A stretch of 56,229 nt of DNA from Ideonella sp. A 288 (GTDB lineage Bacteria > Pseudomonadota > Gammaproteobacteria > Burkholderiales > Burkholderiaceae_C): assembly GCF_002198735.1 (NCBI RefSeq), contig NZ_MWLO01000119.1:1-56229 (forward strand), written 5' to 3'. Shown piece after piece: positions 9,995-18,931 of the stretch. The notes under the pieces are model-generated. The model did not search any database, was not told the origin of the DNA, and saw only the letters and a list, made by a program, of their open reading frames with translations. The translations under genes were made by a program, and so were the position numbers. The stretch's first letter is position 1; each line of letters opens with the position of its first letter.

Positions 9995-11083
9995 TCACTT
10001 GAGCACGTGCTCGAGGGCGATCACCGACCACGAGGTCACGAGCTGCGGCCGGTCTTCCCACCAGGCGTTCGATTCGGCGTTGGCCCAGCTGCCGTCCGCC
10101 GATTGCAGGCTGAGCAGCTTCTGTGCGAGCTCGTTGCGCCAGTTGCGCTTCTGGCCCTTGCCGTCGGTGAAGGTGTCTTCGCCGTAGGCCGCCATCACCT
10201 TCGAGAAGGCGTTGTAGAAGTAGAAGATGCCGTGCTTCTTGCTCGTGCCCGGGTTGGTGTCGAGCGTGTAGTTGGCCGTCATCCACTTGTAGGCGGCCTG
10301 CACGCGGGGGTCGGACTTGTCGACGCCCGCGAACAGCAGGCTCAGCAGACCGGCGGCCGTCATGCCGCCGTAGGACGCGGTGCCGTTTTCGTACTCGGGC
10401 GGGTTGGTGCCGGGCCGGTAGGCGAAGCCGCCGTCGTTGGCTGCCCACTTCTGGTCGTTGCTCTCGCTGCGGTTCTGCGAGCGGTTGACGAACATCAGCG
10501 CCTTCTGCCACACGGCGTCCTTCGGGTCGGTGGCTGCGGCCTTCAGGCCTTCCAGCGACACGTAGACGTTGGACAGGTCGGGCCGCTCGCCGCCACCGTA
10601 CCCGATGCCGCCGTAGTAGACGTGGTCGGGCTTGTAGCCTTCCTCTTCGTCGATCTGGTGCTTGGACAGGAACTTGCGCCCGGCCTCGATGACGGCCGTG
10701 TGCTTCGGGTTCTTGGTGGCGGCCAGCGCGTTCAGGGCCACGGCCGTGTTGTAGGCGGTGGACTGCAGCGACGCGCTGATCGAGCCGTCGGGCTTGGCAT
10801 GCGACAGCAGGAAATCGACCTGGCGCGTGACGAAGGCACCGTCGGCCTCGTTGTACTTCTCGGGGCTTTCGAGGAAGGCGCGCAGCGCCAGCGCGGTGAT
10901 GCCGACCGACTTGAGCAGCGATCCATCGGGCGCCTGCTGCCCGCGCAGGTAGTGCAGGCCGCCGGCGATGGCGCGCACGACACGGCGGCGCAACTGCGGG
11001 TCCATCGCGTCCGCGGCGGCGTGGGCCGCCGGTGCCGCGAGCATGGCAAGGGCCGGGACGGCCAGCACGTGTCTTCTCTTCAT
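9995..11083 (-). CDS. Exported alpha/alpha-toroid (prenyltransferase/squalene-oxidase repeat) protein
   Basis: This 362-residue protein has a signal peptide (MKRRHVLAVPALAMLAAPAAHA) and then repeated helix pairs of the terpenoid cyclase/protein prenyltransferase toroid type. Signatures include LRGQQAPDGSLLKSVGITA, YGGIGYGGGERPDLSN, WAANDGGFAYRPGT, YGGMTAAGLLSLL and LLSLQSADGSWANAES. The DxDD acid motif of squalene-hopene cyclases is not evident, so a binding or scaffold role, or a different chemistry, is plausible. Because it is exported it is not a cytoplasmic prenyltransferase. It overlaps the upstream membrane-protein gene by 4 nt. A second, larger toroid protein with a dockerin is encoded at 16141-17808. 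Confidence 0.82.
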   Translation of the reverse strand: MKRRHVLAVPALAMLAAPAAHAAADAMDPQLRRRVVRAIAGGLHYLRGQQAPDGSLLKSVGITALALRAFLESPEKYNEADGAFVTRQVDFLLSHAKPDGSISASLQSTAYNTAVALNALAATKNPKHTAVIEAGRKFLSKHQIDEEEGYKPDHVYYGGIGYGGGERPDLSNVYVSLEGLKAAATDPKDAVWQKALMFVNRSQNRSESNDQKWAANDGGFAYRPGTNPPEYENGTASYGGMTAAGLLSLLFAGVDKSDPRVQAAYKWMTANYTLDTNPGTSKKHGIFYFYNAFSKVMAAYGEDTFTDGKGQKRNWRNELAQKLLSLQSADGSWANAESNAWWEDRPQLVTSWSVIALEHVLK

Positions 11084-15379: not shown

Positions 15380-15407
15380 CCCGCCGCGCGGCGGCGTCGC
15401 CATGAAA

Positions 15408-15430
15408 AAGGGCCGGCATTGCCGGCCCTT
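15408..15430 (-). terminator. Rho-independent terminator of the toroid-dockerin/cohesin unit
   Basis: AAGGGCCGGC at 15408-15417 pairs with GCCGGCCCTT at 15421-15430 around an ATT loop, a 10-bp perfect stem. Read on the minus strand it is followed by CTTTTTC, a T-run that makes it a classic intrinsic terminator for the cohesin gene ending at 15455. On the plus strand no T-run follows. Confidence 0.85.
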
Positions 15431-15454
15431 CGCATGGTGCAGGGCGACGCTGGA

Positions 15455-16069
15455 TCAGGCGGCCGTGCGGGCGTTGCGGCGGCGCGTGCGACCGGCAAAG
15501 CCGGCAGCCAGCAGGGCCACGGCGGCCAGGCCGTAGCTGGCGGGTTCCGGCACGTCGCAGGAGCCGGTGCCCACGGAGATGCAGGCCGAGCCGACGTTGA
15601 CATTGAGCGTGGCGAATTGCAGGCCGACGTGGTTGCGGTCGAAATCGGGATCGGCACCCAGCGTGAAGGTCGTGGCGCCGTTGGCCTTGCCATCCAGATG
15701 GAACCTGAACAACAGGAACGAGTTGGCCTGATTGGCTGCCAACGTAGCGTCGTCGTCGATCGAGATATCGTCCACGGCGAGGTTGCCATTGACCGACATG
15801 TCGTTCAAACCAAACGAGTTGCCCAGATTGGCGCCGAAGTACTCGGTCAGCGTCCAGTCCAGCACGGTCGAGTTGTACAAGAAGTTCAGGTCGAAGCCGG
15901 ACAGCACCTCGGCGTCAAGGCCGGTGATCGACACTTCGATCGCCACCGAATCGCCCACATTGATGTGCGTGGAGGCTGGCGTGAAGATCAACGCGATGGC
16001 GGCGCTGGCCGGCGCCGATGCGCACAACGCCGCCGCGGCCAAGGCTGCTGCTGAGAGAAAAGATTTCAT
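15455..16069 (-). CDS. Cohesin-domain protein with PEP-CTERM sorting signal
   Basis: This 204-residue protein has a signal peptide (about 1-23) and then a single beta-sandwich domain with cohesin features: INVGDSVAIEVSITGLDAEV (37-56), LSGFDLNFLYNSTVLDW (56-72) and a later FTLGADPDF segment. The C-terminus carries VPEPASYG (173-180), a hydrophobic helix and an Arg-rich end (GRTRRRN), a textbook PEP-CTERM signal processed by an exosortase in betaproteobacteria. Cohesins bind dockerins, and the gene 71 nt upstream on the same strand encodes a dockerin protein. A good ribosome binding site (AGAGGTAACC) precedes the ATG. I infer that it anchors or scaffolds the dockerin protein at the cell envelope. 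Confidence 0.85.
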   Translation of the reverse strand: MKSFLSAAALAAAALCASAPASAAIALIFTPASTHINVGDSVAIEVSITGLDAEVLSGFDLNFLYNSTVLDWTLTEYFGANLGNSFGLNDMSVNGNLAVDDISIDDDATLAANQANSFLLFRFHLDGKANGATTFTLGADPDFDRNHVGLQFATLNVNVGSACISVGTGSCDVPEPASYGLAAVALLAAGFAGRTRRRNARTAA

Positions 16070-16140
16070 GGTGGTTACCTCTTGGATGCGGGGGGTACTG
16101 GCAGGGGCCGCCCGGAGGGGCTGCCCCTGCCGCCGATGCC

Positions 16141-17808
16141 TCAGTTCGTGGCGCAAAGGGCGCGGGTGCACTTCAGGGTGCAGGCCCGCACGTCGTTGAC
16201 GGTGATCTTGCCGTCGCCGGTGGCGTCGCGCTTGTCGCCAGCCACAGGCACCTGGCCGATGCCGGCACGCACCGCGTTCACGTCGATCGAGTCGACATCG
16301 CGGTCGCCGTCGATGTCGCACGAGACGATCGGACGCGGCTCGCAGGCATCACCGCGGGCGTCGCCGTAGGTGTTCTCCTGGCCCGGGTTGGGCACGGCCG
16401 GGCAGTTGTCTTCGGTGTCGCAGACGCCGTCACCGTCGGTGTCGACACAGCCACCACCCGTAGAGCGCTGCAGCACGAGCAGGGCGTACGAGTTGTGCGA
16501 GGTGTTGAAGCTGTCGCCCCACGAGCCCGGGAAGCCGGTGCAGGTGAACGAGCCGTTGGCGCACTGCATGGAGATCAGCTGGTGTGCATAGTCGAAGTAC
16601 TGGCCCTTGGGCTCGCCGGCGTAGAAGCCGACCGCGCCCGCGCCGAACACGGCGGGCCGTGCGAAGGTGGCAGGTTCCTTGTTCACCTGGCGCACGTCGC
16701 ACGCAGGGGCGTTCGCGGCCGGCAGGGTGCCGAAGTCGTTCGGGCCGATGTTGCCGGCGGACGGCGGCACGCCGGCCTGACGCAGCAGTTCCATCGCCTT
16801 GAACGAACTCCACATGTAGTAGCCCATGGACTGGCCGGGCCAGAAGTTGCCGAGGTTGGACAGATCCTGCCAGCGGTAGCGGTTCTTCACCCACTGCATG
16901 TAGTTCTGGACCATCGGCGTGTTGATGTTGGCGCCGCCGAACAGCTGGATGTAGATGCCCGAGGCCGTCTGCTGCAGCGACGGAAGGTAGCCCGTCGAGG
17001 CGAACGAGTTGTAGCCGTGGCCGCGCTCGGCGCCGGTCAGGTTGAAGCAACCGGCGCGGTCCGAACCCACCGCCGCGTTCAGCTCATAGGCCGTGCGGGA
17101 GCGAGCCAGTGCCGCGTCGATGGCGGTCACGCGGGCGGCATCGGCGAACGGGTTGTCCGCGCTCTTGTTCGAGGCGTAGAACGCCTTGGCCGCGGCCAGG
17201 CCGGCCACCGCGAACTGCGTCGTGGACGAGTCTTCGCAGAACTGGTTGGTGTAGCACCAGTAGCCCTGGTTGATGGGGTTCGGGAAGCCGTTGGTGGCCT
17301 TGCGCTGGTTGGTGATCGTGCGGTCGACCAGCGCGTCCATCGCCTCCTTGATGGTCTGGTAGTTCACGTTGCCCGGGGCCAGCACGCTCTTGTCGGGGCC
17401 GCCGGTGAGCGCATAGGTCGACAGCGCGAACATCCACTGGCCGTCGCGGTAGGCGTAGAACGAGGTGTTGTTGACCCGGTCGAGGATGAAGGCGGCGGCG
17501 GTGCGCAGACGGCCCTGATCGGTGGCGTTGGCGCCGGTGTAGCCCTGCGGCGGATCGGTGGCGACACCGCTGGCGCGCTTCTCGAGCAGCGCTTCCATCG
17601 CCAGACCGTTGGCTCCGTCGGTACCCAAGGAACTGGGGTTGTTGTAGACGCCTTGCGTCGCCAGGAACTCGATGCCGCGGTTGATGGCCGTGGACACGTC
17701 CACTTCGAACGGCGTGGCGGCTTGCGCCAGCCCTGCCGTCAAGGTCAGCGCTGCACCGACAGCCGCACCGAGCAGCGATTTCTTCATGTGATTCCGGATA
17801 TTCAACAT
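16141..17808 (-). CDS. Exported alpha/alpha-toroid protein with TSP3 repeats and type I dockerin
   Basis: This is a 555-residue protein. After a signal peptide (MKKSLLGAAVGAALTLTAGL, starting at residue 8), residues about 32-445 form a prenyltransferase/squalene-oxidase-like toroid (AINRGIEFLATQG, DGQWMFALSTYALTGG, MGYYMWSSFKAMELL). Residues 451-490 are Asp-rich thrombospondin type 3-like calcium loops (DTDGDGVCDTEDNCP). The last about 59 residues are a type I dockerin with two calcium loops (DIDGDRDVDSID and DATGDGKITVND). Start ATG at 17808 has GGAGGGACC upstream. It is transcribed before the cohesin gene. Cys pairs in the toroid suggest disulfides and an extracytoplasmic location. Catalysis is not established. 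Confidence 0.87.
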   Translation of the reverse strand: MLNIRNHMKKSLLGAAVGAALTLTAGLAQAATPFEVDVSTAINRGIEFLATQGVYNNPSSLGTDGANGLAMEALLEKRASGVATDPPQGYTGANATDQGRLRTAAAFILDRVNNTSFYAYRDGQWMFALSTYALTGGPDKSVLAPGNVNYQTIKEAMDALVDRTITNQRKATNGFPNPINQGYWCYTNQFCEDSSTTQFAVAGLAAAKAFYASNKSADNPFADAARVTAIDAALARSRTAYELNAAVGSDRAGCFNLTGAERGHGYNSFASTGYLPSLQQTASGIYIQLFGGANINTPMVQNYMQWVKNRYRWQDLSNLGNFWPGQSMGYYMWSSFKAMELLRQAGVPPSAGNIGPNDFGTLPAANAPACDVRQVNKEPATFARPAVFGAGAVGFYAGEPKGQYFDYAHQLISMQCANGSFTCTGFPGSWGDSFNTSHNSYALLVLQRSTGGGCVDTDGDGVCDTEDNCPAVPNPGQENTYGDARGDACEPRPIVSCDIDGDRDVDSIDVNAVRAGIGQVPVAGDKRDATGDGKITVNDVRACTLKCTRALCATN

Positions 17809-18232
17809 AACGGTCCCTCCGTTGACTGGACTGAACTGGACTCTGCGGCCCCGCCCGGGTACCGCCCGACAACATTTCTGCAATGTGTGTCGGCCTGTAG
17901 GCACTGTGCCCCCGACCCCCTGCGATGACAAGTGACCGCCGGGCTGAACCGGGCACTTTCACCCCCTTGTCCGTGGGGGAGATGCCGCGGTACACCGATC
18001 CACCCCCTTGGATCGGGGGTCAGGAGGTCTGGACAGAACTTCGGGACAGGTCGATTTGGGCGGGGCCGTGCTGGCATGTCCCGGCCCCGGTCGACGTCCC
18101 GGGTCGACCGGGCCGCCGCGGTGTCATGGAGGCCTTGTGTTTCTTGACCAGAATCAAGCCCCGGGGCCCGGTCGGAGCGCAGACTTCGCCCCACCACCTG
18201 CCAATGCCCCAATATGGGGCGGCTTTCAGTCC
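17809..18232. promoter_or_regulatory. Divergent regulatory region between the toroid-dockerin gene and dnr
   Basis: This is a 424-base intergenic region without a supported gene. Besides the Fnr-type box at 18144-18157 it contains two copies of CACCCCCTTG (17960-17969 and 18001-18010), a CGATCC/GGATCG inverted repeat (17996-18001 with 18010-18015), and an imperfect ACTGG/ACTGA tandem (17824-17842) just upstream of the minus-strand ribosome binding site. The roles of the last three are unknown. Confidence 0.45.
18144..18157 (+). promoter_or_regulatory. Fnr/DNR box upstream of dnr
   Basis: TTGAC-CAGA-ATCAA closely matches the Fnr/DNR consensus TTGAT-N4-ATCAA. Its centre is about 82 bases before the dnr ATG, similar to the spacing at napA and nirS. 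This suggests that the regulator gene is itself controlled by an Fnr-family protein, possibly by its own product. Confidence 0.75.
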
Positions 18233-18931
18233 ATGGACACCCGCCAATTCGACCTGCCGCGCTACCTGTCGGTGCTGCCGCTGTTCAACGAGCTGAGCCC
18301 GACCGAGCTCGAGCGGCTGGCCCATGGCTGCCAGCTGCGCCGGCTGGCGCGCGGCGACATGGTGTTCCACGTCGGACAGCCCTGCGAGGAGTTCCACGTC
18401 GTGGTCATCGGCCAGGTCAAGCTGTTTGCCATCTCACCGGCCGGGCAGGAAAAGGTGATCGAGCTGGTCGGCCCGGGCAACAGCTTCGCCGAAGCGCTGA
18501 TGTTCACCGGCCGGCCCTACATCGTGAACGCCCAGGCGCTGACCGATTCGCTGCTGCTGTCGGTGCGCAAGCAGGCGGTGCTCGACGAGATCGAGCGCGA
18601 GCCCAAGTTCGCGCTGCGCATGCTGGCGGGCATCTCGCGCCGCCTGCACGGGCTGGTGCACGACGTGGAGGCCTATGCGCTGCACAGCGGCATGCAGCGG
18701 GTCATCGGCTACCTGCTGCGCGAGCAGGAGATGGAGGACGGCAGCGCCGTCGAATCGGTGACCGTGTCGCTGCCGGTCAGCAAGGCCACCGTCGCCTCGC
18801 GCCTGTCGCTCACGCCCGAGTACTTCTCGCGCGTGCTGCACGAACTGGAAGCGGCCGGCCTGATCGAGATCGACAAGCGCGACATCCGCATCCTCGACGT
18901 GCGCCGGCTGGCGAAGTACCAGCCCCAGTGA
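18233..18931 (+). CDS. dnr: Crp/Fnr-family transcriptional regulator (DNR-type)
   Basis: This 232-residue protein has an N-terminal cyclic-nucleotide-binding-like sensor domain (about 15-130: RGDMVFHVGQPCEEFHVVVI, NSFAEALMF), a long dimer helix, and a C-terminal winged helix-turn-helix (SKATVASRLSLTPEYFSRVL, about 183-202). It lacks the four-cysteine cluster of true FNR, which places it with the DNR/NnrR/Dnr-type NO-responsive regulators, some of which bind heme. The location beside nap, nir and nor, and the Fnr-type boxes before those operons, support a role as the denitrification regulator. I use ATG 18233 as the start, since the extended frame upstream is unlike protein and contains the Fnr box. 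Confidence 0.85.
   Translation: MDTRQFDLPRYLSVLPLFNELSPTELERLAHGCQLRRLARGDMVFHVGQPCEEFHVVVIGQVKLFAISPAGQEKVIELVGPGNSFAEALMFTGRPYIVNAQALTDSLLLSVRKQAVLDEIEREPKFALRMLAGISRRLHGLVHDVEAYALHSGMQRVIGYLLREQEMEDGSAVESVTVSLPVSKATVASRLSLTPEYFSRVLHELEAAGLIEIDKRDIRILDVRRLAKYQPQ

Follow-up and report, generated by a model that had tools for sequence, protein, structure and literature searches.

Two adjacent genes in Ideonella sp. A 288 probably form a one-to-one, calcium-dependent and exosortase-anchored cohesin-dockerin surface display unit. They lie on the minus strand of contig NZ_MWLO01000119.1, a stretch of 56,229 nucleotides that was analysed as a whole (the window). The upstream gene encodes P0002, in which an alpha/alpha toroid precedes a TSP3 unit and a C-terminal dockerin. 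The downstream gene, 71 bases away, encodes P0001, which consists of a signal peptide, one cohesin and a PEP-CTERM sorting tail. The domain identities, the recurrence of the pairing, the step and recognition positions in dockerin-cohesin covariation, and the exosortases in the genome were all computed. That the toroid protein docks to an exosortase-processed cohesin is strongly suggested. The window pair belongs to a broad family in which cargos are swapped.

Domains and genomic setting of the pair

The features of the two genes are as follows.

16141..17808, minus strand: toroid-TSP3-dockerin protein P0002, 555 aa
17719..17808, minus strand: P0002 signal peptide, residues 1-30 (by sequence inspection; model helix 2-22; alternative start possible at 17787)
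16444..17718, minus strand: P0002 cargo domain, alpha/alpha toroid, residues 31-455
16336..16443, minus strand: P0002 TSP3 calcium-binding unit, residues 456-491
16144..16323, minus strand: P0002 dockerin, residues 496-555 (two 12-residue calcium loops; one cysteine before loop 1, three after loop 2)
15455..16069, minus strand: cohesin-PEP-CTERM protein P0001, 204 aa
15557..16000, minus strand: P0001 cohesin domain, residues 24-171
15479..15556, minus strand: P0001 PEP-CTERM exosortase sorting tail, residues 172-197 (Pfam PF07589)
15405..15431, minus strand: GC-rich hairpin and U-run 3′ of the cohesin gene, possible terminator (z = -5.0)

When the two sequences were scanned singly against Pfam, the PEP-CTERM tail of P0001 was the only domain to pass its cut-off (PF07589, 26.6 bits); Cohesin (18.9 bits, cut-off 24.1), TSP_3 (23.9 bits, cut-off 25) and Dockerin_1 (14.7 bits, cut-off 22.9) all fell below theirs. 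A cohesin profile (A4) matched the solved cohesin 3l8q at 3.2e-8, placing the domain in sequence kinship with known cohesins. The predicted structure of P0001 has the cohesin fold, on which the first-pass annotation had staked its identification of the protein starting at 15455. Structural matches include cohesins of Archaeoglobus fulgidus (2xdh) and Clostridium perfringens (2vo8, 2jh2), which share this fold outside cellulosomes. The tail contains the PEP motif, hydrophobic helix and basic end of an exosortase substrate. The dockerin of P0002 has two F-hand repeats, each with a 12-residue calcium loop, and its profile matched 2y3n_B at 1.5e-10; position 3 of loop 2 is Thr, where Asn or Asp is usual. 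Domain analysis thus bears out the earlier observation that a dockerin gene adjoins a cohesin-PEP-CTERM gene. The same annotation had ended the unit in a strong intrinsic terminator; the hairpin and its U-run are present, but the terminator rule does not list the hairpin.

The TSP3 unit, which also matched COMP at 8e-17, is common to P0002 and the MtsC-like proteins (NF047638). P0002 scores 26.8 bits against that model (cut-off 350) and has no sorting tail of its own, whereas MtsC-like proteins end in MYXO-CTERM. The toroid matched no family in our Pfam scan and nothing at E ≤ 0.001 in Foldseek. Its fold resembles GH76, GH105 and squalene-hopene cyclases, which VIA separates by only about one Z unit; with these tied and Foldseek without a match, we dropped assignment to a single enzyme class. 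A second toroid-like protein in the window (9995-11083, minus strand) matches squalene-hopene cyclase models, and its position is unrelated to the dockerin-cohesin pair.

The genome (6.98 Mb in 164 contigs) contains 35 PEP-CTERM matches and two dockerin-profile matches. The second dockerin match, on C53, is again a toroid-TSP3-dockerin protein followed by a cohesin with a PEP-CTERM tail. A search for exosortases, proposed in the first-pass annotation, found XrtA on C43 and XrtB on C52. P0001 has a single cohesin. Pfam finds one Cohesin match in the genome, a secretin, although divergent cohesins such as that of P0001 escape its model. In this secretin (L066, C57, 1575-3872; 115.8 bits), the Cohesin domain is C-terminal (38 bits, above cut-off), and Cohesin matches in similarly long open frames occur in other relatives. 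Another PEP-CTERM protein of the same genome (L069, C33, 6325-6903) matches the cohesin HMM described below (1.3e-11); we found no dockerin match near it, the whole genome having just the two.

No Pfam glycoside hydrolase was found in P0002 or in eight dockerin proteins from other loci. In the FG-GAP proteins of L111 and L094, the FG-GAP repeats also gave a match to the RGL11_C lyase model, above cut-off in L111. As dockerin-bearing plant cell wall enzymes were not found among these proteins, we did not accept membership of a cellulosome.

An FNR-like palindrome (18144-18157) lies in the spacer that separates the toroid gene from a divergent gene of the Crp/Fnr family (18233-18931), and a very similar Crp/Fnr-family gene is likewise divergent to the dockerin operon of L059 (G018). 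FNR- or RpoN-like sites occurred at 9 of 73 dockerin operon starts, and over all 180 operon-like starts, dockerin ones included, the three patterns occurred at 8, 5 and 4; we make no claim of such regulation.

Recurrence of the pairing and variety of cargo

Among 60 genomes, including that of the window, P0002 was matched over its full length only in its own. Elsewhere, the match was confined to its C-terminal region, in most cases to the final 60 residues, and fell on a different protein; relatives of P0001 lay beside many of these. A dockerin-only profile scan of genome contigs with 11 dockerin tails, from which 80 of 85 relatives were kept, yielded at least 79 loci, at least six of them (L073, L074, L083, L092, L103 and L106) in genomes that had supplied query tails. 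The 79 loci are mainly beta- and gammaproteobacterial, together with records labelled Acidobacteria, Nitrospirae, Deltaproteobacteria and others. Gene calling gave 84 dockerin genes from 76 of the loci, L114, L115 and L124 yielding none. For 80 of these genes the neighbour was complete on the side where a partner is expected, downstream of a C-terminal dockerin and upstream of an N-terminal one.

By our own rule, 51 of these 80 direct neighbours carried a PEP-CTERM tail, compared to 5 of 495 other genes. The tail was present on 44 of 56 neighbours of C-terminal dockerins and 7 of 24 neighbours of N-terminal dockerins; 17 of the 29 neighbours lacking a recognisable tail lie beside N-terminal dockerins. 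We also built a cohesin HMM from 25 neighbours, with signal peptides and tails removed. At E < 0.001 it matched 34 of 55 held-out neighbours, leaving 21 without a match, and 4 of 497 other genes. All four of the latter are near a dockerin: on its other side in L105, one gene further in L122, beside a stretch with no called gene in L115, and at the cut end of the locus in L134. As a check set, we used six-frame open reading frames (ORFs) from 15 regions found in whole-genome HMM searches (one, L153, apparently on the same contig as L087). Ten of 13 dockerin ORFs had an adjacent cohesin ORF, and no other cohesin match occurred among 469 ORFs; six of the ten cohesin ORFs had a PEP-CTERM tail by our rule. 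L163 and L164 contained no dockerin, and the dockerin ORFs of L155, L158 and L159 had no adjacent cohesin. These three sets of counts lead us to reject a chance neighbourhood of the two genes, and the pairing seen in the window is not peculiar to one genome. It may be easily overlooked because the Pfam Cohesin model misses most of these proteins, matching only 21 of 61 at E ≤ 0.01.

We surveyed 399 genomes of the order, 21 of which had a dockerin match. An exosortase was found in 16 of these 21, compared to 149 of the other 378 (Fisher p = 0.001). Of the five dockerin-positive genomes without an exosortase match, four (G073, G160, G254 and G255) have weak dockerin matches. The fifth, G228, has a 50-bit match and an adjacent cohesin with a PEP-CTERM tail, and does not fit the anchoring model unless its exosortase was missed.

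BLAST linkage grouped the cargos into toroids (14, including a doubtful member, L127), a protein of about 600 residues (29), a mixed group (33) and several small groups. L127 is linked by BLAST, but its alignment is 24% and its N-terminal part differs, and we left it out of the structure prediction. Tandem toroid-dockerin-cohesin units occur in Accumulibacter (L134) and in a Burkholderiales record (L137). The operon of the 600-residue cargo encodes a small protein, a TolB-like PD40 protein, the dockerin protein and the cohesin-PEP-CTERM protein. In the one 600-residue protein scanned, Pfam found nothing beyond calcium motifs and Dockerin_1; by eye it looks like a propeller. The eight dockerin proteins scanned from other loci contained peptidase C25 with TSP3, FG-GAP, Ig/PKD, DUF11 and NHL domains.

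Two cargos (L061, 3789-7006, assigned by Pfam; L060, 1031-4239, assigned by BLAST linkage) consist of a gingipain-type C25 peptidase, TSP3 and a dockerin that lacks the cysteines. The PEP-CTERM protein that follows each gene matches the cohesin HMM, at 2.9e-8 in L061 and only at E = 0.03 in L060. A giant protein with PKD and RHS repeats (L108, 3175-10277, cut at 2090 aa) has an N-terminal dockerin, and the cohesin-PEP-CTERM gene lies upstream.

Proposed display at the cell surface and related systems

We propose that signal peptides would export both proteins and that XrtA or XrtB would process the PEP-CTERM tail of P0001, whose one cohesin would then stay at the cell surface or within the exopolysaccharide matrix. 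The dockerin of P0002 would fold round two calcium ions and plug into this cohesin, and the toroid, although without a sorting tail, would be held at the cell. Tail processing and anchoring at the surface or in the matrix are what the protein families would predict, and the two 12-residue loops of the dockerin suggest that docking depends on calcium. The cargo presumably acts extracellularly, perhaps within the matrix of a floc or biofilm. Exosortases appear to leave their substrates surface-anchored, according to the available part of PMC11980579. In its essentials this was the reading of the first-pass annotation, a toroid docked on an exosortase-processed, non-cellulosomal anchor, and the parts of it that could be checked (fold, exosortases and pairing) held.

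The nearest working analogue is ScaE of Ruminococcus flavefaciens. In the accessible text of PMC5301203, this single sortase-anchored cohesin binds the XDoc of ScaB and of CttA, and likewise holds a dockerin-bearing protein at the cell. The ScaE anchor is of the LPXTG/sortase type in a Gram-positive cellulosome, whereas the window pair is PEP-CTERM/exosortase and Gram-negative. Unlike that system, the window pair has no visible X module, its cargo gene is adjacent, and its cargo is not cellulolytic by Pfam. In the open full-text literature, outside which most subscription papers lie, no paper combines dockerin and PEP-CTERM, with or without cohesin. The only co-mention of exosortase and cohesin there is in a review of methanotrophic archaea (PMC5244752) whose accessible part treats them separately, calls the function of non-cellulosomal cohesins and dockerins unknown and guesses at cell contact. 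We regard the pair as a new form of non-cellulosomal cohesin-dockerin system.

PepA of Aquincola (NCBIfam NF033554) is also a small secreted PEP-CTERM protein, from a related order. P0001 matched the PepA model over residues 83-196 (3.6e-5), but as the score was 23.7 bits against a cut-off of 80, we rejected membership of that family. Unlike P0001, PepA has no dockerin partner mentioned in the portion of PMC9850573 available. That portion states that PepA increases cell-bound polysaccharide in flocs and that its overexpression raises cell-bound polysaccharide in an Aquincola rpoN1 mutant.

These properties of PepA favour an alternative in which the proteins bind but tie cells or polysaccharide together, with the cohesin on one partner and the dockerin cargo on another, rather than display the cargo on the producing cell. 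Forty of 61 family members resemble the floc_PepA model at E ≤ 0.001, with P0001 far below its cut-off, and several cargos are adhesin-like (PKD, cadherin, RHS). As other cargos are of the peptidase C25 or TolB-operon type, we consider such a matrix cross-linker improbable.

Less probable still is that the PEP-CTERM cohesin escorts the dockerin protein to and across the outer membrane without having to remain attached as its anchor. The adjoining genes would suit an escort, and the secretin with a C-terminal cohesin could receive dockerin proteins. Escort and anchor look alike in sequence, however, and the N-terminal dockerins (24 of 80) give no special hint.

Covariation of dockerin and cohesin

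For the display unit, each dockerin would be expected to fit the cohesin of the adjacent gene through matched residues in its F-hand helices. Across 64 pairs, dockerin and cohesin distances were correlated (Mantel r = 0.66, 0 of 5000 permutations). We then considered loci with the 600-residue cargo (27, or 23 with a TolB-like gene). There, the dockerin-cohesin correlation was 0.74-0.77, and 0.74-0.76 as a partial correlation given the cargo (0 of 2000 permutations). Cargo-cohesin and TolB-cohesin correlations were 0.15-0.20 and 0.20-0.26, while cargo and TolB correlated at 0.83. Neither dockerin nor cohesin sequence tracks the cargo. When 24-column windows were moved along 26 loci, correlation with the cohesin was 0.16-0.41 for those starting upstream of the dockerin and 0.53-0.71 for those starting inside it, with a step at the boundary to 0.70 for the window at the first dockerin residue.

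We took positions 10, 11, 17, 18 and 22 to be the classical dockerin recognition positions. Among 44 F-hand columns, covariation was strongest at position 17 of hand 1 and positions 18 and 10 of hand 2, while positions 11 and 22 covaried weakly; position 14 of hand 2, outside our recognition list, ranked fourth. The recognition positions exceeded other columns in 64 pairs (p = 0.002), in 26 pairs (p = 0.010) and in 56 non-redundant pairs (p = 0.003; 0.019 against equally variable columns). In the parts of PMC5301203 and PMC5141474 available, only one pair, given as 10-11 or 11-12, agrees with this list, and the available part of PMC12484212 gives no recognition positions. Cohesin and dockerin sequences covary, most of all at classical recognition positions (17, 18 and 10), which supports the pairing originally proposed. 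Since adjacent genes are linked, some correlation is expected without binding, and correlation alone does not prove it; what points to binding is the step where the dockerin begins, together with the pattern among columns. That the genes are merely co-inherited, with covariation reflecting linkage, is very improbable: one recombination could exchange both domains, which lie at the end of one gene and in the gene that follows, but correlation rises only once windows start in the dockerin, recognition columns stand above others (p = 0.003 to 0.02), and for N-terminal dockerins the cohesin gene lies on the opposite side.

With a matched fit, evolution could give an existing plug and socket a new cargo, or alter both of them together around an unchanged cargo. 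The window toroid is 70% identical to that of L137 (4405-6150), whereas the dockerins are 45% and the cohesin cores 21% identical. Its dockerin (75%) and cohesin (60%) resemble those of L071, where the cargo is the unrelated 600-residue protein. Similarly, the C53 toroid is 75% identical to those of the L137 and L134 units, with dockerins at 51 and 40% and cohesins at 21 and 24%, whereas the C53 pair is 61% (dockerin) and 53% (cohesin) identical to that of L106. By these identities, one genome holds two toroids of different lineages, each with a plug and socket nearest those of another cargo.

A four-cysteine dockerin (one cysteine precedes loop 1 and three follow loop 2, typically as C-x3-C-x4-C) occurs in 56 of 64 pairs, and five more have an extra upstream cysteine, counts partly shaped by search patterns that contained cysteines. 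The arrangement suggests a disulfide clasp.

We are evenly divided on a wider reading, in which Gram-negative bacteria would generally use code-matched display: exosortase-anchored single cohesins would pair one-to-one with four-cysteine, perhaps disulfide-clasped, dockerins, matched at F-hand positions 10, 17 and 18, with unrelated extracellular cargos exchangeable and several orthogonal pairs per cell. The family joins two questions, the roles of cohesins and dockerins outside cellulosomes and the surface roles of many PEP-CTERM proteins. It is testable, since each locus names its own binding pair, predicted specificity residues and an expected phenotype, release of the cargo on loss of the cohesin. 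For engineering, it could also supply Gram-negative cohesin-dockerin pairs that are matched and bring their own anchor.

At one locus, plug and socket occur in a single ORF (L070, 4000-7437, on G003:C23). It contains a P0001-like region (2.8e-10), a PEP-CTERM-like segment just below cut-off, an Ig domain and a C-terminal dockerin above cut-off, and is a natural fusion of socket and plug.
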